Assembly: GCA_017447805.1 (NCBI GenBank)
Contig: JAFSMR010000046.1
Location: 1 to 64,000 of the forward strand
Direction of reading: 5' to 3'
DNA: 64,000 bases
From: Kiritimatiellia bacterium
GTDB taxonomy: Bacteria; Verrucomicrobiota; Kiritimatiellia; RFP12; UBA1067
Shown here: in pieces, positions 2,017-59,208 of the stretch
Position numbering within the stretch: position 1 is the stretch's first letter
Layout: each line of letters begins with the position of its first letter
Program-made: the position numbers and the translations under genes
Notes under the pieces: model-generated
Told to the model about the DNA's origin: nothing
The model's database searches: none
What the model saw: the letters and a program-made list of their open reading frames with translations, nothing else

Positions 2017-3226
2017 CAAGGGGACTCCCTAAGAGAATATGTTCATTTACCTCTACGACTTTCATGCGAACTAGACTCTTTCGCTTCAAGCCGAGGTTTG
2101 CGGAAATTTTGGAACGCGCTTGACACCAAAGATATTCACTCGTCCAGCCGGCGAGATTCTTTTCGTCTTCAATAATAACTTCCACTACTCTATTGAGAAA
2201 TTTCTTCGCATAATGCGATCTTTCCGTAGAAGCGACCTGCGCGAGCGTTCTCGCTCGCTCGTGCCTGATCTCGCGCGGCACAGAATTCGCGAAAACCGCC
2301 GCAGGGGTGCCAGGTCGTTCAGAATAGGGGAAAATGTGCGCGCGCGAAATCGCGAATCTCTTGAAGAGTGAATTCGTCGTAAGAAATTCAAGCTCTCCTT
2401 CGCCCGGGAAACCCGTCATTAAATCGCAGCCGATTGAAATTAGCGGAATTTTCTTAACTGCTTCTTTTGCGATCGTCTCGACTAATTTGAAAGGATATGG
2501 TCTATTCATCGCCGCAAGGATCGCTGGCGAGCCTGATTGTATCGGCAGATGCAAATATCGGCAGATATTCGGCTTTTCGCACATTAAATCGATTATCTCC
2601 AGAGCGACTTGCGAAGGTTCTACCGAGCCAAGACGAATTCTGCAATTTGCATCAAGTTCAGAAAGCGCTTTCACTAAATCCGCCAGATTCTTGCCATCGG
2701 AGCGATACATCGAAAGATTGCAACCAGTCAGGACGATTTCATGATAGCCTGCTGCGATAAAGCTTCTCGCTTTTTCTAGTACGGCCGCGAAATCCACACT
2801 AACGGACTTTCCTCGAAATTGCGGCACTATGCAAAAGGAGCATGCGCAACTACACCCATCCTGCACCTTGAGATAGGCGCGCGCCGTCCGCATCGGGACG
2901 CTAGCTCCCATATTGCCACCGCCCTCCAGGTGAGTTCTTTTCGCACCTTTTAAAGCGATATCCCTAAGCCAGTGTTCATTGCGCTTTTCCTTGAGGCAAC
3001 CAGTTACGACTATCCTTTTATTAGGATATTTCTCCTTTATGTGGAAAATCAATTTTTCGCAATCATGCTGTGCGCGCGCAGTTACCGAACATCCGCGTAT
3101 TATTATCAAATCAGCATCTTGATGAGAATCCGTCAAGCTCCAGCCACGAGCAAGGAATTGTGCTTCTTGCTCAAGCGCCTCAGAGCGGGAAAGGCGGCAT
3201 CCAAATGTCTCGAAACAAACTTTCAT
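1997..3226 (-). CDS. mtaB: Radical SAM tRNA methylthiotransferase, MtaB type
   Basis: Predicted to add a methylthio group to t6A37 in tRNAs that read ANN codons. The 409-residue product has an N-terminal UPF0004 domain starting KVCFETFGCR, with cluster cysteines in FGCR, RGCSV and TGCLK. The radical SAM motif CxxxCxxC follows within GCSCACSFCIVP, and then a C-terminal TRAM-like region. MiaB (ms2i6A) is the main alternative, but the short N-terminus and sequence style favour MtaB. The start is the ATG at 3226, which forms a 4-bp ATGA overlap with the stop of the upstream CPBP gene. A TTG codon 15 nt further upstream is less likely. Confidence 0.85.
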   Translation of the reverse strand: MKVCFETFGCRLSRSEALEQEAQFLARGWSLTDSHQDADLIIIRGCSVTARAQHDCEKLIFHIKEKYPNKRIVVTGCLKEKRNEHWLRDIALKGAKRTHLEGGGNMGASVPMRTARAYLKVQDGCSCACSFCIVPQFRGKSVSVDFAAVLEKARSFIAAGYHEIVLTGCNLSMYRSDGKNLADLVKALSELDANCRIRLGSVEPSQVALEIIDLMCEKPNICRYLHLPIQSGSPAILAAMNRPYPFKLVETIAKEAVKKIPLISIGCDLMTGFPGEGELEFLTTNSLFKRFAISRAHIFPYSERPGTPAAVFANSVPREIRHERARTLAQVASTERSHYAKKFLNRVVEVIIEDEKNLAGWTSEYLWCQARSKISANLGLKRKSLVRMKVVEVNEHILLGSPLDGWRND

Positions 3227-16766: not shown

Positions 16767-17638
16767 TTTCTCAGTCCCTTCAAAAGTTCGATTTCTTCTT
16801 TGTAGCCTTGCAAGTCGCAAGGCGTTTCGAGATAAAACGGTTTATCGGCAAGTTTCGGATGGTTGATTATACGCCCGATTGCCTCAAGGCCAATATGCCC
16901 CTTGCCGATTTTCGCATGGCGGTCTTTATGGGCGCCGAGGGTGTTCATCGAATCGTTTAGATGGATTGCCTTCAAGCGCTCTAAACCGATTACAGCGTTG
17001 AATTCATCCAATACTTTATCGAGCGCGCTCGCGATATCATAGCCGCCATCCCAAATGTGGCATGTATCGAGGCATACGCCGAGGGGAAATTTCGCGGCAA
17101 TTTCCGGCACCGCTTTTTCGGTGCGCTCGATAATCTGCGCGACTTCCTCGAAATTGCGCCCGACCTCGCTGCCCTTGCCGGCCATCGTCTCGAGAAGAAT
17201 GCCAGTCGAAACGCCGCCAAATTTTTCCACATGCTTTTCAAGAACTCTCGCGAGCATCGAAGCAATAAGTTCAATACCCGTCTCGGCGCCTTGCCCTACG
17301 TGGCTGCCGGGATGGAAATTGTAAAGCGCGCCGGGAGTTTCCTCTAGTCTCACCAAATCGTCAGCCATCGTCTTTTCGGCGAATTCGCGAACTCTCTCTT
17401 CGACGCCTGCCGCGTTTAGAGTATATGGCGCGTGCGCGAGAATCGGGCCTATGCCGTTTTTCTCGGCGAAGGCCTTGAATTCTTTCACATCCTCGCGGTC
17501 GATGGGCTTCGCCGCCCCGCCGCGCGGATTGCGCGTAAAGAATTGGAATACATTGGCGCCGATAGAACAGGCTGTCTGGGCCATAGCGAGATACCCGCCG
17601 CTTGCAGAAAGATGACAACCAATCTTAAATTCGCCCAT
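16763..17638 (-). CDS. nfo: Endonuclease IV (AP endonuclease)
   Basis: Cuts DNA at abasic sites during base-excision repair. The 291-residue product follows the zinc TIM-barrel family: [91 protein letters not shown] and FYLETP. These supply the His, Asp and Glu residues of the three-zinc site. The ATG at 17638 follows the yeaD stop by only 2 nt, and the 3' end overlaps panC. The role has no obvious link to neighbouring metabolic genes, so this is a housekeeping operon. Confidence 0.95.
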
Positions 17639-17640
17639 TA

Positions 17641-18543
17641 TTATTCCTCGAGAGAACTTTGAATCGCCGTAAGAAGAGTATGCTCGGCGCCGGGCTCGAT
17701 CGTAAAGCCTGCGTCGCGCCATAATGTCGCCGGCTCTACGCAGAGAAACTTCTTCCAATCGCCTTCTTCTTGATCGGCTAAACGCGTCTCGCGCCCAGGA
17801 TTCCACACCACGAGCTTGCGGTTGCCGGCAGAAACAATCGCAATCGCCCGGCGCAATGTCGGGTCGAGAAGCGCGAATTCGTGCTTTGGCTCGTCCTTTA
17901 GCGTAATTACATGGTCGCTAGCTTCGGTAGCCGCAAAATCTCCCGCGAAAACTCCCTTCGACATATCACGCGCATCGATATATTCTAGACCACCTACGCC
18001 GCGAACAGTAACTTTTTCCCTATCGCCAACGAGGAAATACGGATGAAAACCTTCGGTAAGAAGGAATGGTTTATCACCGGTATTTTTCGTCCTGAGCGAA
18101 AGATTCAACTTCATCGAAACAGAAACCTTTAGCTCGAGATAGAAGTCGTAAGGCCAAATCTTTTTCGTCTCGTCGCTTGATTTCAACGCGAGAGTAATTT
18201 CGGTCATCTCGTCGGTATACTGCGTGCCGCGAACGGTGAACAGACTTAGGCGCGCAAAGCCGTGGGGCTTAGTGCCTTCTTCGCCAGACTTGCCGAACCA
18301 AGGCCAGCAAATCGGAATACCGCAATGCACGGAATCTGCGCGATTGTAGTCGCGCTTCGAAGTGCGATAGATTACCGGCGGCTGACCAGTTGGTTTATAG
18401 GAAAGGATATTCCCGCCTAGAAGCGCAACTTGCGCAGAACCATATTTATTTACTAGCGCAACTTCCGGATAGCCGCAATGTCCTTCGCGGAATACAATTC
18501 TTTCCGGCGCACCAAATTTTCTATTCAGTTCTTCTATCGTCAT
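17641..18543 (-). CDS. D-hexose-6-phosphate mutarotase / aldose 1-epimerase family (YeaD-like)
   Basis: Interconverts anomers of glucose-6-phosphate or a related sugar. The 300-residue beta-sandwich protein shows [48 protein letters not shown] (active-site His and Arg), [13 protein letters not shown] (second catalytic His) and VVWNPGRE with FLCVEPA. The DxxPCVxPW style of the YeaD subgroup fits better than galactose mutarotase GalM. The ATG is preceded by AAAGGAA. It sits between ilvN and nfo, downstream of a GC-rich repeat element. Confidence 0.85.
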
Positions 18544-18570
18544 ATCGTTTTTCCTTTCGTCTTTTCCGGC

Positions 18571-18600
18571 GGCCGCGGGGCGGCGCGCCCTACCGACTCA
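18571..18600. repeat. GC-rich palindromic intergenic element
   Basis: Contains GGCGCGCC, CCGCGG and GCGGCCGC-like palindromes. An exact 15-mer within it (18575-18589) recurs in inverse orientation at 28183-28197, and its GGGCGCGCCGC core recurs near 50050. It lies between ilvN and yeaD. Confidence 0.6.
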
Positions 18601-18607
18601 TACCTTA

Positions 18608-18646
18608 CCCCTAATTCCTAATTTCTAATTTCTAATTTCTAATTTT
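18608..18646. repeat. Short heptad tandem repeat at the end of ilvN
   Basis: Five slightly degenerate copies of a 7-bp unit (ATTAGAA on the minus strand). The array supplies the last six codons of ilvN plus its stop and continues about 17 nt beyond. Confidence 0.75.
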
Positions 18647-18885
18647 TTCCTCGACGTTACTTCGATTACATTAACCTGATTGCGGAGCTGAAGGATAATC
18701 TGCTCGACAACTTTAGCCGTTCCTAAGACATCGATCTTCATACGCGAAACCGTGCCATCTTCGGTCGGCCCGACATTGAGGGTTTGGATATTATAACCGC
18801 GGCCGGAAATCAAGCCGACGATTCTCGCAAGAACGCCTGGCTTGTTTTCCACATAGCAATTCAGCCTATATATTTCTTCGTTCAT
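18625..18885 (-). CDS. ilvN: Acetolactate synthase small (regulatory) subunit
   Basis: Binds valine and regulates the IlvB catalytic subunit. At 86 residues it is a single ACT domain (YVENKPGVLARIVGLISGRGYNIQTLNVGPTEDGTVSRMKI), like short IlvN proteins rather than the longer IlvH type. The ATG at 18885 has GAGGTG, overlapping the ilvB stop, 7 nt upstream; an in-frame GTG 9 nt earlier is less likely. The last residues (KKLEIRN) are encoded by a heptad tandem repeat, so the C-terminus may have been changed recently by repeat slippage. Confidence 0.93.
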   Translation of the reverse strand: MNEEIYRLNCYVENKPGVLARIVGLISGRGYNIQTLNVGPTEDGTVSRMKIDVLGTAKVVEQIILQLRNQVNVIEVTSRKKLEIRN

Positions 18886-18895
18886 TGGCGGCACC

Positions 18896-20629
18896 TCACT
18901 GAAAGACCATTTCGCTTACCGGCTTGCCGGCCGGAATCATCGGATAGACATTTGCCCGCGGCTCGACGATAACTTCGACGAGCGAAGCCTTATCTGATTT
19001 TATCGCTTTGGCTATAACCGAATCGAGCTTCGCCGGGTCGATTACGCGATAAGCCTCGGCGCCATGGGCTTCGGCCATCTTCACGAAATCAGGCAAATAA
19101 TCATATTTCAAATCTTGCTCGAGATGCTCGTTTGCCGGCCGCCCTTTTACGGTAAGGATGGAGCCAGAGTAGTTTTTCGAATAGAAAAGCTCTTGCCACT
19201 GGCGAACCATTCCAAGGCATCCATTGTTGATTATGACGAATGTAACTGGGAGTTTATGCTCTACCGCAACGACCAATTCCTCGAATGTCATCTGCGCGCC
19301 GCCATCGCCGCAAATCGCGACCGTTGTATGGTCAGGCCGCGCGAAGGCCGCGCCAATCGCCGCCGGAATTCCAAAGCCCATAGTCCCCATTCCGCCGGAT
19401 GTGAGGAAGTGGCGTGGAATAGAATAGCGGAAATGCTGTGCCGCCCACATCTGGTGCTGCCCGACATCCGTAACGATTACCGCATGCCCCTTCGTGGCTT
19501 TATCAACGGCTTCCATTACCGCCTGCGGCATGATTACATTCGGGTGCATCTGCTTCCACGAGACGGGATGACTCTTCTTCCAACCATCGATTTTCTCGAT
19601 CCACTCCGGATGCGAAGCTTTCTTTACGCGCGAGCCGACCGTGGTCAGGACATCCTTGACATCCGCAACAATTCCAAGCGTCGCGGCTACATTCTTGCCG
19701 ATTGAAGCCGGGTCGCAATCGACATGCACAATCTTCGCCTTTGGCGCATATTTCGAAATCTTGCCGGTAACGCGATCTGAAAATCTAACGCCAAGCGCAA
19801 TTATTAGGTCTGCCTCATTCATCGCCCAGTTCGCCGCCGGCGTCCCGTGCATGCCGGCCATCCTTAGGGAGAGCGGGTCGTGCTCGTCAAAACTACCAAG
19901 CCCCATTAGCGTAGTAGCTACAGGAATCCCAGCCTTATGAGCGAGCGCGGCGACATCATCCGCGGCGCCGGAAGCGATTACTCCGCCGCCGGCATATATT
20001 ACCGGCCTTTCGGCCTCGTTTATCAGCTTCGCCAGCCTCGTCAGCTGGCTTGCCGTCGCCGCAGATTCCGGGTGGTATGCCCTCAAGGATACGCGCTCTG
20101 GATACTGCGCCTTGGTCAACGCCTGCTGGCAATTCTTCGGTATATCGATTACTACGGGGCCCGGCTTGCCGTGGGTCGCGATATAAAACGCCTGCGCTAC
20201 GATTTCAGGAATTTCATCTGCCGAATGCACGAGGAAGTTGTGCTTTGATACCGCCCTCGTTACGCCTGTAGTATCAGCTTCCTGAAAGGCATCGGTGCCA
20301 ATGAGCGACATCGGAACCTGTCCAGTGATTACAATCAGCGGAATGCCATCGATATTCGCGGTCGCCAGCCCCGTTACCGTGTTGGTCGCGCCCGGGCCGC
20401 TCGTCACCAAGCATACGCCTGGCTTGCCTGTAGAGCGAGCATACCCATCTGCCATGTGCACGCACCCTTGCTCGTGGCGTCCAAGCACAAACGAAAATTT
20501 CGCATCTGTAATGCAGTTGAAGATATCCAGGGCTTGCCCGCCCGGATACCCGAAAAGCACATCCACGCCCGCCTTTTCCAGCGACTCTACCAAGGCACGG
20601 GCGCCTGTTCTTTCTTTGCAGTAATTCAT
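18896..20629 (-). CDS. ilvB: Acetolactate synthase large (catalytic) subunit
   Basis: Thiamine-diphosphate enzyme that condenses pyruvate (or pyruvate with 2-oxobutyrate) in the first common step of branched-chain amino-acid synthesis. The 577-residue product has the catalytic Glu in FVLGRHEQGCVHMADGYAR, the FAD/oxidase-like middle domain with LIIALGVRFSDRVTG, and the ThDP motif from AICGDGGAQM to VIINNGCLGMVRQWQE. It heads the operon with ilvN. The -10 box is 9 nt from the ATG, so the transcript probably has almost no leader. No attenuator peptide is present, unlike pheA next to it. Confidence 0.97.
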   Translation of the reverse strand: MNYCKERTGARALVESLEKAGVDVLFGYPGGQALDIFNCITDAKFSFVLGRHEQGCVHMADGYARSTGKPGVCLVTSGPGATNTVTGLATANIDGIPLIVITGQVPMSLIGTDAFQEADTTGVTRAVSKHNFLVHSADEIPEIVAQAFYIATHGKPGPVVIDIPKNCQQALTKAQYPERVSLRAYHPESAATASQLTRLAKLINEAERPVIYAGGGVIASGAADDVAALAHKAGIPVATTLMGLGSFDEHDPLSLRMAGMHGTPAANWAMNEADLIIALGVRFSDRVTGKISKYAPKAKIVHVDCDPASIGKNVAATLGIVADVKDVLTTVGSRVKKASHPEWIEKIDGWKKSHPVSWKQMHPNVIMPQAVMEAVDKATKGHAVIVTDVGQHQMWAAQHFRYSIPRHFLTSGGMGTMGFGIPAAIGAAFARPDHTTVAICGDGGAQMTFEELVVAVEHKLPVTFVIINNGCLGMVRQWQELFYSKNYSGSILTVKGRPANEHLEQDLKYDYLPDFVKMAEAHGAEAYRVIDPAKLDSVIAKAIKSDKASLVEVIVEPRANVYPMIPAGKPVSEMVFQ

Positions 20630-20638
20630 GATTCGCGT

Positions 20639-20667
20639 ATTATACCAAAATTTGCCGTTTTTCGCTA
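20639..20667 (-). promoter_or_regulatory. Promoter for ilvB (near-leaderless)
   Basis: TATAAT with extended TGG at 20639-20644, 9 nt before the ATG. The -35 position reads TAGCGA, a poor match, so the extended -10 probably dominates. Confidence 0.65.
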
Positions 20668-20685
20668 GGGTATTAGGCTAAATTT

Positions 20686-21834
20686 CTATACTTCTTCATA
20701 CGCCCCCAAGAAGGTGAAATGCTCGATTGCAGGGTCGTCGGCAAGCTCGCCGATTAACCTCAAGACCGATTCATCGCCGGGAATCGCCTCGAAATCGAAT
20801 GTGAAGCGGAATTCGAAATCCATGCCGGGGATTGGACGCGACTCGAGTTTCGTCAAGTTTACCCCAATTGAAGCAAATCGCGCAATTACATCGCTCAATG
20901 TGCCTGGCTGGTGCGCGAGGCTCATCATTACGGAAAATTTGCGCGCTCCGGGATATATCTGCGGCGTCTTCGAGATAAGTATGAATCGCGTATAGTTGAA
21001 CGCCGCATCGGTTATGTTTTCCGCTAAGATTTCGAGTCCATATAGCTCTGCGCACCTGCGCGAGGCGATTACCGCGCGCGCGCTATCTGCGCTTTGCGCC
21101 AAGTCTTTGGCCGCGACTGCCGTGTTTGTGCTCGGTATTTCGCGCACTTGAGGGTTTTTCTTCAGGAACTGACTGCACTGCGCGAGCGCGTGGGGGTGGC
21201 TGGCGATTTCCTTGATATCCTCAAGCTTTGCGCCGCGCACGCCTAATAGCACATGGTCGACCTTAAGCCTAAGCGCCTTTACGATGTGGAACGAATGCTT
21301 ATCCATCAAATCGTAGACTGATGCGACCGACCCCGCCGCAGAATTTTCTATCGGCAATATCCCATACGGGCACAGCCCCTTTTCAACCGCATCGAACACT
21401 TTATCGAATGAACGGAAATACATTATCGTAGGAACCGTGAACAAAAGCGAGCACGCCTGCTGGGCATAGCCGCCCTCTACGCCGGGACACGCCACCACGC
21501 CTCTTGTCGGGAAAACCCCGCTCGTTTCTTTGCACGCCTGCCGGATTTTCGTGACCAGCGCATTCTCGCCTTGCAGAATCTTCCTTTGGCGCGCGCGCGA
21601 AATTCCGAACAGAGTCGAGAAAAGCCTCATCGCGCCATTTTCATATTCCGGCCCAACGAAATCCGCCACCTTGGAAAGTATCGCCCTTTCCCTCGCAGGG
21701 TCGAACACAGGCGAATTCGTAGCGGCCTTCGCCGCTGCTACGCGCTCTACGATTTCGAGACGCTCCTTGTATAGCTTGGCGAGCGATTCGTCAATCGCGT
21801 CAATCTTTGCTCTTATATCTTTTAGTTCTTCCAT
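20686..21834 (-). CDS. pheA: Chorismate mutase / prephenate dehydratase (P-protein)
   Basis: Bifunctional enzyme converting chorismate to prephenate and then phenylpyruvate, for phenylalanine synthesis. The 382-residue product has an AroQ chorismate mutase domain (1-90, IRAKIDAIDESLAKLYKERL), a dehydratase domain (about 108-285, GYAQQAC, ENSAAGSVASVYDL, NYTRFILIS with the catalytic Thr), and a C-terminal ACT domain (about 298-375, HQPGTLSDVIARF and LESRP) for phenylalanine feedback. Transcription starts about 170 nt upstream and passes through a Phe-rich leader peptide and a terminator hairpin, so regulation by attenuation is expected. Confidence 0.96.
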   Translation of the reverse strand: MEELKDIRAKIDAIDESLAKLYKERLEIVERVAAAKAATNSPVFDPARERAILSKVADFVGPEYENGAMRLFSTLFGISRARQRKILQGENALVTKIRQACKETSGVFPTRGVVACPGVEGGYAQQACSLLFTVPTIMYFRSFDKVFDAVEKGLCPYGILPIENSAAGSVASVYDLMDKHSFHIVKALRLKVDHVLLGVRGAKLEDIKEIASHPHALAQCSQFLKKNPQVREIPSTNTAVAAKDLAQSADSARAVIASRRCAELYGLEILAENITDAAFNYTRFILISKTPQIYPGARKFSVMMSLAHQPGTLSDVIARFASIGVNLTKLESRPIPGMDFEFRFTFDFEAIPGDESVLRLIGELADDPAIEHFTFLGAYEEV

Positions 21835-21840
21835 ACTACT

Positions 21841-21872
21841 TAAAAACCCTCGCCTTTCTTTTGGCGGGGGTC
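21841..21872 (-). terminator. Rho-independent terminator used as pheA attenuator
   Basis: On the minus strand CCCCCGCC and GGCGAGGG form an 8-bp stem with one A-C mismatch around an 8-nt loop, followed directly by five Ts. It lies between the leader peptide and pheA, whose ATG is only 7 nt past the hairpin region, so it can only act conditionally. Confidence 0.85.
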
Positions 21873-21903
21873 CTTCCTTTTATTAGTTCATCAGATTTTC
21901 ATC

Positions 21904-21987
21904 TCACAAGGAAAACGCCGCCGCCTTACGATCGACAAAGACCGTAAATACGAATCCGACGAAATAGCTATATTGCTTAACCATCAT
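21904..21987 (-). CDS. pheL: Phenylalanine leader peptide controlling pheA
   Basis: A 27-codon peptide between the promoter and the terminator: MMVKQYSYFVGFVFTVF, then VDRKAAAFSL. It has five Phe and two Tyr, with Phe at 9, 12, 14 and 17 clustered just before the attenuator. AGGGA precedes the first ATG. Codons 21-24 contain GGCGGCGGCG (21916-21925), which can pair with the 5' arm of the terminator (21863-21870) to make an antiterminator. A ribosome stalled on Phe codons would leave that arm free; one reaching the stop would cover it. This is the classic amino-acid attenuation design, here inferred from sequence only. The gene name is by function, as the sequence differs from the E. coli leader. 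Confidence 0.85.
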   Translation of the reverse strand: MMVKQYSYFVGFVFTVFVDRKAAAFSL

Positions 21988-22009
21988 ACTTTCCCTGCAA
22001 GTGCCGCAT

Positions 22010-22039
22010 ATTATAGCATTTTCTCCGTCCTCTTGTCAA
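22010..22039 (-). promoter_or_regulatory. Promoter for the pheL-pheA transcript
   Basis: TTGACA, 18 nt, TATAAT on the minus strand, with TGC before the -10. The -35 and -10 hexamers both match the consensus exactly, suggesting strong initiation that is then limited by attenuation. Confidence 0.88.
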
Positions 22040-22510
22040 CTGCCGGACGCGACAAGCGCCCCGCTGAAAACTTTCATCCTTCAAACAACATAAAAAAGCG
22101 GCGAAGCTGCTAGTAGCTCGCTAATTTATCAGAAAAATACCGCCGCGCGCCCCGCGCTGGGGAGGGGGAGGGGGATTTTGCTTTCTCTTCTTCTCTCTTT
22201 GCTACTTTCTCTCTCTTCTCTTTCATTTGCATTGCTGTTTATGGGTACAATTCGCCTTACTTGCCCTATTGCTCAGGGTTGATTATATTTTGGTCTTCTT
22301 CTACAGCTGCTCGAGGAACAATGAAAAAGGGGCGCTCAAATATCAATGGCCCTCTATATCACAAGCACAGATTTTTTGAAAATCTCAGAAAATTCGACTC
22401 AAAAACGATACACCGGATATCGATTTCACCCCTGATTTTATTGGCTAAAATAACTTTTTTCATTTTTTTTGCGTGTGAAGATTATGGCTCTCTAGCGCCT
22501 CCTCTAGCCC
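22040..22510. other. Non-coding stretch with pyrimidine tract
   Basis: No convincing gene. It holds an imperfect hairpin near 22090-22120, a GC-rich patch (22140-22180) and a long CT-rich tract on the plus strand (22180-22235). It also has AT-rich sequence with a possible plus-strand promoter (TTTCAC, 16 nt, TAAAAT near 22424-22451) pointing toward the hairpin array. The stretch could encode or lead an untranslated RNA, but nothing identifies one. Confidence 0.4.
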
Positions 22511-22694
22511 CGCCACTTTTGTGGCGATGCTTTCGCGCGGCTGCGCAACCTCCGCCACTTTTCTGGCGAGACTTTCGCGCTACTGCGCAACCTCCGCCAC
22601 TTTTGTGGCGAGACTTTCGCGCGTCTGCGCAACCTCCGCCACTTTTCTGGCGATGCTTTCGCGCGTCTGCGCAACCTCCGCCACTTTTGTGGCG
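22511..22694. repeat. 42-bp tandem array of hairpin units
   Basis: Four full copies and a partial fifth, starting at 22511, 22553, 22595, 22637 and 22679. Each copy opens with CGCCAC-TTTT-GTGGCG or a variant that still pairs (CGCCA/TGGCG), followed by TTTCGCGC and CTGCGCAA segments. The plus strand stays open through it as a 14-residue repeat, but no coding support was found. It lies just past the 3' end of the dsbD-like gene. Confidence 0.85.
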
Positions 22695-22736
22695 GCGGCG
22701 GTCACGGGGTGAGCGCCCTACCGCGGCGGCGAGGGG
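22695..22736. repeat. GC-rich block sharing GGCGGCGGTCAC
   Basis: Follows the 42-bp array directly and touches the stop of the dsbD-like gene. It shares the 12-mer GGCGGCGGTCAC with 59211-59222, where a second, unrelated 42-bp tandem repeat is also adjacent, and CGCCCTACCG with the element near 18586. Confidence 0.5.
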
Positions 22737-23903
22737 TTAATCAAACATCAGGAAGAGAGGGAGACTCCAATTTTGCTTTTCCTTGAAATCTTTCAGTTCG
22801 TCCATTTTGTTAAGCTCTTCGTTGAGCTCGTCTATTTGCTCTGCTTGAAGGCGGATTATCGTAAATTCACGAAGCTTTTCCTTTACCTGCTCGTTGCGAA
22901 GGGTTCTTTTTTCCATTGCGCGGCAATTCTTGCACCAAGTAGCCCAGCAATCCACGAGCACTGGTTTCTTTTGTGCTTTAGCGAAGGCAAGAGCACGAGA
23001 AAGCGTCTTTGGAGTGACAGATTCGCCATTTTCGAAAACTACCGCCATAGCGCCGGTATTTTCATCTTCGGCTAATTTGAATGCGGCATCTTGAAGCTCT
23101 GCTTCAACAGCCTTTCTGTGGGCGCGGATAGAAAATCCGTCGTATGCCAGATACGCATACCACGCGGCAAAGCCAAGTACAATTATACCGAATAGAACAT
23201 TCACTTTCTTCATCCAAGCGCCGGGCTTAGGCAAAACCTGCATACCCGCGCCGGCAAATGGCCAAGGCAAAGCCATTCCTAGGCTGAAAACGAAAGGCAG
23301 AAGAATCGCCGCCTTGTTGCCTTGTGCTGAAAGCGCCGCGGTCAAATTCAATACCGCAAGAAGCATAGGCGCAACACAAGCCCCCGCGAGCACGGCAGAT
23401 ACTACACCCATAAATAGCGCGAACAAGCCTGGTAGCATCTTGGATTTTAGCGCCACAACGCCGCTGCGCCTTCCTGAAAAATCGATAAAGAATACATCGA
23501 ATAACGATAGCGCCAGTGCAATAAAAATCACCGCCATCGTAATATTGAACCAGGGGTTGCCTTGAATCGCGCCAAAGGCCATGCCGCCGAATACCGCGAG
23601 AAGACCAAGGACCCCGTAGGCTATGGCGATTCCTAGACCATACAAAAGGCCTCTCGTGAATGATTTGCCGATAATCATAAGATTAATCGGCGCCATAGGC
23701 AAAACACAAGGCGTCAAATTCATCAAAAAACCGCTTGCAAAAATCAACGCGAGCATGCCTAGAAGCGACATTCCGGCAAAGGGATTTGATTGCGCCGCTT
23801 GCGCGATCTGTTCGCTTGCGCCAGACCCGGCGAGCGAGAGGAAGCCGAGAAATTTCTCTACTCCCGTCATGCCTTCCCAATAATATGCAGCTGCAAAAAA
23901 CAT
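22737..23903 (-). CDS. DsbD-like thiol:disulfide interchange protein, shortened at both ends
   Basis: Carries reducing power across the inner membrane to periplasmic disulfides or cytochrome c maturation. The 388-residue product has the transmembrane DsbD-beta domain with paired cysteines Cys66 (TPCVLP) and Cys176 (GACVAP), and then a thioredoxin-like gamma domain with Cys324-Cys327 (TWCKNC). The N-terminal alpha domain of classical DsbD is absent. The thioredoxin part stops at LPLFLMFD, roughly 30-40 residues earlier than in DsbD, exactly where the GC-rich repeat block begins. It may have been trimmed by repeat insertion. GGAGAG precedes the ATG. Last gene of the ribH operon. Confidence 0.82.
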   Translation of the reverse strand: MFFAAAYYWEGMTGVEKFLGFLSLAGSGASEQIAQAAQSNPFAGMSLLGMLALIFASGFLMNLTPCVLPMAPINLMIIGKSFTRGLLYGLGIAIAYGVLGLLAVFGGMAFGAIQGNPWFNITMAVIFIALALSLFDVFFIDFSGRRSGVVALKSKMLPGLFALFMGVVSAVLAGACVAPMLLAVLNLTAALSAQGNKAAILLPFVFSLGMALPWPFAGAGMQVLPKPGAWMKKVNVLFGIIVLGFAAWYAYLAYDGFSIRAHRKAVEAELQDAAFKLAEDENTGAMAVVFENGESVTPKTLSRALAFAKAQKKPVLVDCWATWCKNCRAMEKRTLRNEQVKEKLREFTIIRLQAEQIDELNEELNKMDELKDFKEKQNWSLPLFLMFD

Positions 23904-39927: not shown

Positions 39928-40596
39928 CTAATCACCTAAAAATCTTTGGGCGTTGGAATCGAGAATCGAAATCAGTTTTTCTTCGTCAATATTTCTTATT
40001 CTTGCGAGGACTCTGGCAACTTCGATGACTTTTGGCGTTACTGCAGCGGTTTCGAGCGTTCTATCTGATTCCACAAGAAGCATGTCGAGTGGAATTTTCG
40101 ATGCAAGCTCGCGATAATTAACAGCGTGATCGTTAAGCAAGGCTGGCCCTATCGAGACAAAGCCATTGAGCGCCTTGATATCTGGCAAAAGTCCGCCAGA
40201 GCGCGAAAAGCCGTGGAAAAGAAAGGCCGGAATCGCTTGAGCGTATCGCTTGGCCTCATTGACTACTTCGCCCCAGCATTTCGCGCCGTGCAACACTACT
40301 GGCCGCTTCATCAACGCGGCGATTTGAAGTTGTGAAGAAAACACGACTCTAGAGCGAGCAGATATTTCTTTCGACTTTAGCCTATCTAACCCTATCTCGC
40401 CGACCCCGGCCCCGGGATTTTCTTCGAGCATTTGACGAAGATGCTCTTCATCGTAGGAATCGACATACCAAGGATGGCAGCCGAAGAAGAGCGCTCTCGC
40501 CCCTTCCGGCGGCTTGAAATCCCCGTTATTCCAGTTTAAGGGACAAATAATCGCTTGGCTTGAAGAATCAGCGACGTGACAATGCGCGTCAATCAT
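39928..40596 (-). CDS. TatD-family metal-dependent hydrolase
   Basis: Probable TatD-type deoxyribonuclease or related amidohydrolase. The 222-residue product has [25 protein letters not shown] (metal Glu), [29 protein letters not shown] and LLVESDRT (metal Asp). These are the TatD landmarks in order, though the protein is about 30-40 residues shorter than E. coli TatD and skips part of the usual loop. Its ATG overlaps the recA stop by 4 bp, pointing to cotranscription with recA and perhaps a role in DNA degradation or repair. Confidence 0.85.
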
Positions 40597-59095: not shown

Positions 59096-59179
59096 GAAGG
59101 TAGCGTCAAAATTTTGACGGTACTTTCGTCCGTGGTAGAAGGTAGCGTCAGAATTTTGACGGTACTTTCGTCCGTGGTA
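59096..59179. repeat. 42-bp tandem repeat, two copies, each with a palindrome
   Basis: Copies at 59096-59137 and 59138-59179 differ at one base. Each contains CGTCAAAATTTTGACG (59104-59119) or a one-mismatch form (59146-59161), able to fold into an AT-centred hairpin. It lies just upstream of the restriction promoter, with 6 bp of a third copy. Confidence 0.9.
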
Positions 59180-59208
59180 GAAGGTTGTAGAATGTTGCCA
59201 ATGCCAAT

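Follow-up and report, generated by a model that had tools for sequence, protein, structure and literature searches.

The question raised by this locus is whether the short region preceding pheA acts as an RNA switch and, if so, what it would sense. A sequence-only reading of the window (the whole 64,000-nucleotide stretch of DNA analysed) had placed a promoter, a ribosome site, a 27-residue leader peptide and a terminator with a T-run in this order before pheA, and had interpreted the arrangement as attenuation. Inspection of the minus strand confirmed the succession of consensus promoter, leader ORF, antiterminator, terminator and pheA, and we consider it very probable, judging from the features analysed below, that the element is a classical ribosome-mediated transcription attenuator of pheA. 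Such an RNA switch would most likely sense phenylalanine via ribosome stalling.

Gene context, promoter and leader peptide

The host genome is a draft assembly of 2.25 Mb (93% complete), and the closest named relatives of its PheA come from MAGs of rumen and gut origin that bear the label Kiritimatiellae or Verrucomicrobia, with identities of at most 73%. On this basis the host is a PVC bacterium, as had been supposed, and its phylum is most likely Kiritimatiellota. The pheA gene (20686..21834, minus strand, with its ATG at 21834) encodes a chorismate mutase/prephenate dehydratase of 382 residues with CM_2, PDT and ACT domains, the ACT match scoring below Pfam's own cut-off. It is followed after 56 nt by ilvB (acetolactate synthase large subunit; 18896..20629, minus strand) and then by the gene call for ilvN (small subunit; 18625..18894, minus strand). 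No terminator was found in the gap between pheA and ilvB, and this gap carries an extended −10 promoter of ilvB's own (TGGTATAAT, TATAAT at 20644-20639). In ilvB promoters of this type (window 20639-20647; L320-L331) the ATG lies about 7–11 nt past the −10, which suggests that ilvB is transcribed in the genus into an almost leaderless mRNA. As to the surroundings, a 42-bp tandem repeat (22510-22694; 4.4 copies, 91% matches) is placed between the pheA upstream region and a dsbD-like gene and encodes an ORF with repeats PPPLLWRDFRA, and a second 42-bp tandem repeat is present at 59096-59185 (2.1 copies, 97% matches).

The predicted promoter comprises a TTGACA −35 element (22034..22039, minus strand) and, after a spacer of 18 nt, a TATAAT −10 element (22010..22015, minus strand) which is preceded by TG and is thus of the extended type. 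Together they match the consensus at 12 of 12 positions, the only such match within 17500-23000, and an extended −10 of the same TGGTATAAT type is also found upstream of the leaders of most relatives. The leader ORF (21904..21987, minus strand) consists of 27 codons and a TGA stop (MMVKQYSYFVGFVFTVFVDRKAAAFSL), and AGGGA, which resembles a ribosome site, lies directly 5' of its ATG. Translation confirmed the phenylalanines reported at positions 9, 12, 14, 17 and 25, and further places tyrosines at 6 and 8 and valines at 3, 10, 13, 16 and 18; Phe-rich leaders occupy the same position in relatives. The leader ATG is located 22 nt past the −10, unlike in several relatives, in which this distance is 7–11 nt from the hexamer, which would put the 5' end of the RNA on the ATG or a few bases from it, and these leaders appear to be near-leaderless.

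The valines could extend the attenuator reading, rather than oppose it, if the leader were a two-amino-acid sensor for Phe and Val that couples pheA to ilvBN. The five valines are interleaved with the phenylalanines (FVGFVFTVFV) and their share of 0.19 is the highest among 39 leaders, the next being 0.10; the binomial probability for Val is 6e-4, a post hoc value from one locus. The proximity of ilvBN, 56 nt after pheA with no intervening terminator, would agree with such coupling, as would the leader with Phe and Leu found in a pheA-leuA-leuC relative. However, ilvB has its own promoter in the gap, and when close relatives, whose ilvB genes lie elsewhere, were searched for Val leaders before ilvB, none came to light, just a promoter near the ATG, which lowers the standing of a proposal that we regard as rather doubtful.

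Alternative pairings and the proposed switch

The attenuator reading depends on segments of the leader RNA that pair in mutually exclusive ways. Region 1, the main stretch of control codons, contains Phe 12, 14 and 17 (21937..21954, minus strand), and the codon for Phe 17 (21939-21937) is about one ribosome footprint ahead of region 2, the nearest upstream aromatic codon starting 14 nt before it. Region 2 (GGCGGCGGCGTTTTCCTT; 21908..21925, minus strand) lies inside the last leader codons and ends one base ahead of the stop codon. It is predicted to pair with region 3 (AAGGAAGGACCCCCGCC; 21863..21879, minus strand), the 3' arm of the antiterminator, whose final part (21870-21863) doubles as the 5' arm of the terminator. 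An antiterminator overlapping the last codons had already been proposed between 21916-21925 and 21863-21870; this pairing is real but had been drawn too short, as 21925-21908 forms about 16 pairs with 21879-21863, with small bulges. The longest unbroken run is 5 bp, and the remaining pairs come after bulges. The GC-rich terminator stem (21870-21863 with 21854-21847, loop 21862-21855) contains one C·A mismatch; its 3' arm is region 4 (GGCGAGGG; 21847..21854, minus strand), which is followed by the UUUUU run of the intrinsic terminator (21842..21846, minus strand). With an 8-bp core, one mismatch and five U, the terminator is modest. Folding gives −24.0 kcal/mol for the antiterminator segment and −17.5 kcal/mol for the terminator, and the untranslated leader has a minimum free energy of −53.2 kcal/mol (z = −2.8 against shuffles) in a fold that comprises a 1:2 helix and the terminator, as a classical attenuator would be expected to form.

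These pairings would allow the following operation. When Phe-tRNA is ample, the ribosome would reach the leader stop and cover region 2 (21925-21908), upon which the 3:4 terminator would form and transcription would end near 21842. Under a shortage of Phe-tRNA, the ribosome would stall at Phe 12–17 with its front edge ending at region 2, which would be freed to pair with region 3 (21879-21863), and the resulting antiterminator would block the terminator and let pheA be transcribed. Should the leader not be translated, the long 1:2 helix would favour the terminator again. So described, the predicted mechanism is the same as that of classical pheL and trpL; termination in the cell and its dependence on Phe-tRNA are what we infer from the sequence.

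Region 4 alone among the sequences ahead of pheA resembles a Shine-Dalgarno site, and the 3:4 hairpin, whose end is 12 nt from the pheA start codon, could instead act as a translational switch that hides the pheA ribosome site until stalling frees it. The shortness of the U-run, part of which is taken up by the stem, would fit this possibility, whereas 12 nt is a long Shine-Dalgarno spacing. Terminators are also present between leader ORF and first structural gene in relatives, and since they lie about 20–60 nt upstream of the gene start and often have longer U-runs, hiding of the ribosome site cannot be the general mechanism. As the sole explanation a translational switch is therefore improbable, although it may add to termination.

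Leaders, pairings and operon content among relatives

Taken alone, the occurrence of five Phe among 26 codons carries little weight (P about 0.003–0.009), and a permissive detector yields several other low-scoring matches elsewhere in the 64-kb window. For these reasons, which would favour a chance resemblance in an intergenic region, the significance of the element must rest on relatives. The detector considers only ORF length, the terminator and base complementarity between the end of the ORF and the terminator 5' arm; its thresholds were fixed after the first leaders had been seen by eye, and amino acid composition was not used, so that any aromatic enrichment is an independent outcome. The attenuator architecture was detected in 42 of 186 aroF/pheA upstream regions, deduplicated by sequence although still kin by descent, and 40 of the 42 leaders are rich in Phe, Tyr or Trp. 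In comparison, 200 dinucleotide shuffles gave 1.9±1.3 matches (0.02 aromatic) and the reverse-complement control a single, non-aromatic one. The leaders so found contain 18% Phe, 13% Tyr and 3% Trp, versus 4.5%, 1.9% and 0.3% in PheA and AroF. Together with the partner permutations described below and the orthologous position of the leaders in the pheA clade, the shuffle test refutes chance at the family level, and we give this explanation next to no weight.

In about ten relatives pheA is preceded by a promoter, a leader rich in Phe or in aromatic residues, and a hairpin. In most others pheA is the second gene behind aroF (DAHP synthase) and the leader precedes aroF, carrying Phe, Tyr and often Trp (e.g. 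MNNNRYFYFGFFYFAFTERGVG and MNRYYRFGWYFYFGFMSERGRAH); leaders of aroF(-pheA) with attenuator hairpins were observed order-wide (L139-L168, L006-L009, L083, L093, L118-L120 and others). For most pheA genes of the family no leader stands immediately before the gene; many of these follow aroF, and others belong to different operons or sit close to the end of a contig. In the PheA tree the four pheA genes with Phe leaders and without aroF (L001-L004, that of the window included) form one clade with 100/98 support, and their leaders stay Phe-rich while the peptides share little else; the conservation of Phe codons in a diverging peptide agrees with the sequence-only reading. In the rest of the class, the regions upstream of aroF (families f7-f46, 40 loci) gave no aromatic leaders except at L189, and leaders of aroF/pheA thus look order-restricted. 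The exception (G202:C36) has an aroF like that of L049 and a leader identical to L049's, and this genome is probably misplaced, mislabelled or contaminated. The aroF of the window's own genome (L169, G000:C3) has no leader peptide; a tRNA-Val (TAC) gene (2578-2654, minus strand) separates aroF from a promoter close to consensus, and the tRNA gene and aroF may therefore share a transcript. A candidate leader at L115 (VCWLFLYFLYKKQVFLKV) was rejected, as it is not followed by a suitable terminator and is separated from pheA by a tRNA-like stretch.

The expectation that the stems co-vary was borne out in a set of 36 dissimilar leaders, in which the best-run score of each segment with its own partner was compared with that obtained with the partners of other genomes. 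Region 2 scored a mean of 21.8 with its own region 3 and 17.4 with others' (0 of 10,000 permutations as high, p about 1e-4), the 3:4 pairing 24.1 and 16.7 (p about 1e-4), and the 5' half of the ORF showed no effect (10.67 versus 10.68). Indeed, 2:3 pairs that differ between genomes still match, as in GAGCGGG/CCCGCTC, GCGGAGCG/CGCTCCGC, GGAGCAGGGTC/GGCCCTGCTCC and GCCGGACAC/GTGTCCGGC. With a lower bound of 12 nt, which was our choice, 231 of 277 aromatic codons precede region 2 by that distance or more. The closest of them typically falls 12–20 nt away (24 in one), roughly what separates the A site of a ribosome from its front edge. A ribosome at the stop codon would cover at least half of the unbroken run in 22 of the 36 leaders, the more distant ones fitting less well. 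A metabolite-binding riboswitch or T-box, for which leader translation is not needed, is a common form of transcription control before amino acid genes in other phyla, but the conserved features here are codons and mutually exclusive hairpins rather than an aptamer, and an Rfam search at gathering and permissive thresholds returned no leader family at threshold, its best weak match (His_leader, 13 bits, E = 9.8) being at chance level, so that this explanation is scarcely credible.

A further line of evidence for attenuation comes from the leader codons, which, judging from the sequences compared, change with operon content across relatives. With aroF in the operon, Tyr and Trp average 0.48 of the aromatic codons, versus 0, 0, 0.12 and, in the window, 0.29 in its absence (p = 7e-4, which is optimistic because the relatives share ancestry). 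The leader before pheA-leuA-leuC (L002/L031) contains five Phe and six Leu (binomial P for Leu = 6e-5), and in G065, where pheA is followed by trpE (L057/L105), a Trp-type leader with Trp-Trp (MSNREYFSNCWWRRCGFGLAARFAA) stands in front; the L057 leader was rejected as a Phe-type one, since it matches trp and not phe leaders. Many trpE genes of the order have Trp-Trp-Trp leaders. One of the trp type was also observed in the window's own genome (MNKYWWWPCGFGSAWRMIAS, L249, G000:C35), about 165 nt upstream of the trpE frame (39997-40359, minus strand), with an antiterminator (GGATTCGGTTC/GGACCGAATCC) and a terminator with a U-run before trpE. Other candidates observed in the order are Leu-rich leaders before some leuA genes (L292, L300, L309) and Val/Ile-rich ones before ilvB (L343, L345, L347, L348), and no His-rich leaders were found upstream of hisG.

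Overall, the parts and their order, the spacing, the alternative pairings and their co-variation, and the link between codons and operons in relatives lend good support to attenuation as the interpretation of the pheA leader. It is conceivable, if still tentative, that the order uses rewritable attenuators of a single leader architecture, whose control codons are retuned whenever the operon gains or loses genes (Phe; Phe and Leu; Phe, Tyr and Trp; Trp; and a two-pathway Phe and Val sensor in the window), many of the leaders being on leaderless or nearly leaderless RNAs. The leaders found extend the predicted attenuation in this order to operons for aromatic amino acids, Trp and Leu, and probably to branched-chain ones. 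Operon rearrangements that change the sensed codons constitute a natural experiment, and amino acid sensing in uncultured rumen bacteria can be directly predicted from sequence alone.

Comparison with known systems

The notion that classical attenuation is mainly proteobacterial, taken up in the sequence-only reading, is dated, as cases are known in Actinobacteria (PMC1262725, PMC11802643) and predicted in Chlamydia (PMC3937554). The novelty thus resides not in the mechanism but in the spread of attenuators through one little-studied order of Kiritimatiellota and in the matching of codons to operons; a literature search found no paper joining Kiritimatiellota with leader-peptide attenuation, and the results suggest that attenuators are under-annotated outside model phyla.

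In Escherichia coli, the Phe-rich pheL leader controls pheA by attenuation according to Phe-tRNA availability, as stated in a passage of PMC11802643 that cites Zurawski 1978. The window resembles this system in having a Phe-rich leader directly before a fused chorismate mutase-prephenate dehydratase gene, and differs from enterobacterial pheL in its phylum and in that its leader matches no Rfam leader family. The Phe codons of E. coli pheL come in runs, whereas those of the window are interspersed, and the leader codons of its relatives vary with operon content. In Corynebacterium glutamicum, the aroR leader with Phe-Tyr-Phe precedes a DAHP synthase operon (PMC11802643, PMC4046766) and is reported to respond to Phe and not to Tyr, and attenuation at trpL is also known (PMC11802643). 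The leaders that precede aroF-pheA operons in relatives of the window are similarly placed to aroR-aroF, but the actinobacterial leader has a single short motif and those of Kiritimatiellota 6–10 Phe, Tyr or Trp codons. The uORFC-13-1 of Acholeplasma is a predicted Phe-coding uORF with a terminator before aroF (PMC8632094); it belongs to another phylum, has at least one Phe codon, involves no pheA and is a prediction only. Within the PVC group, a trpL attenuator is predicted in Chlamydia, another phylum (PMC3937554), a case that is contested and coupled to TrpR. The trpL attenuators in general share a leader with codons for the sensed amino acid and a terminator, Trp and its gene taking the place of those in the window. 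Finally, the trpL RNA of Sinorhizobium meliloti starts at its own ATG and is leaderless (PMC7298713), a configuration which the leaders of several relatives of the window appear to share.
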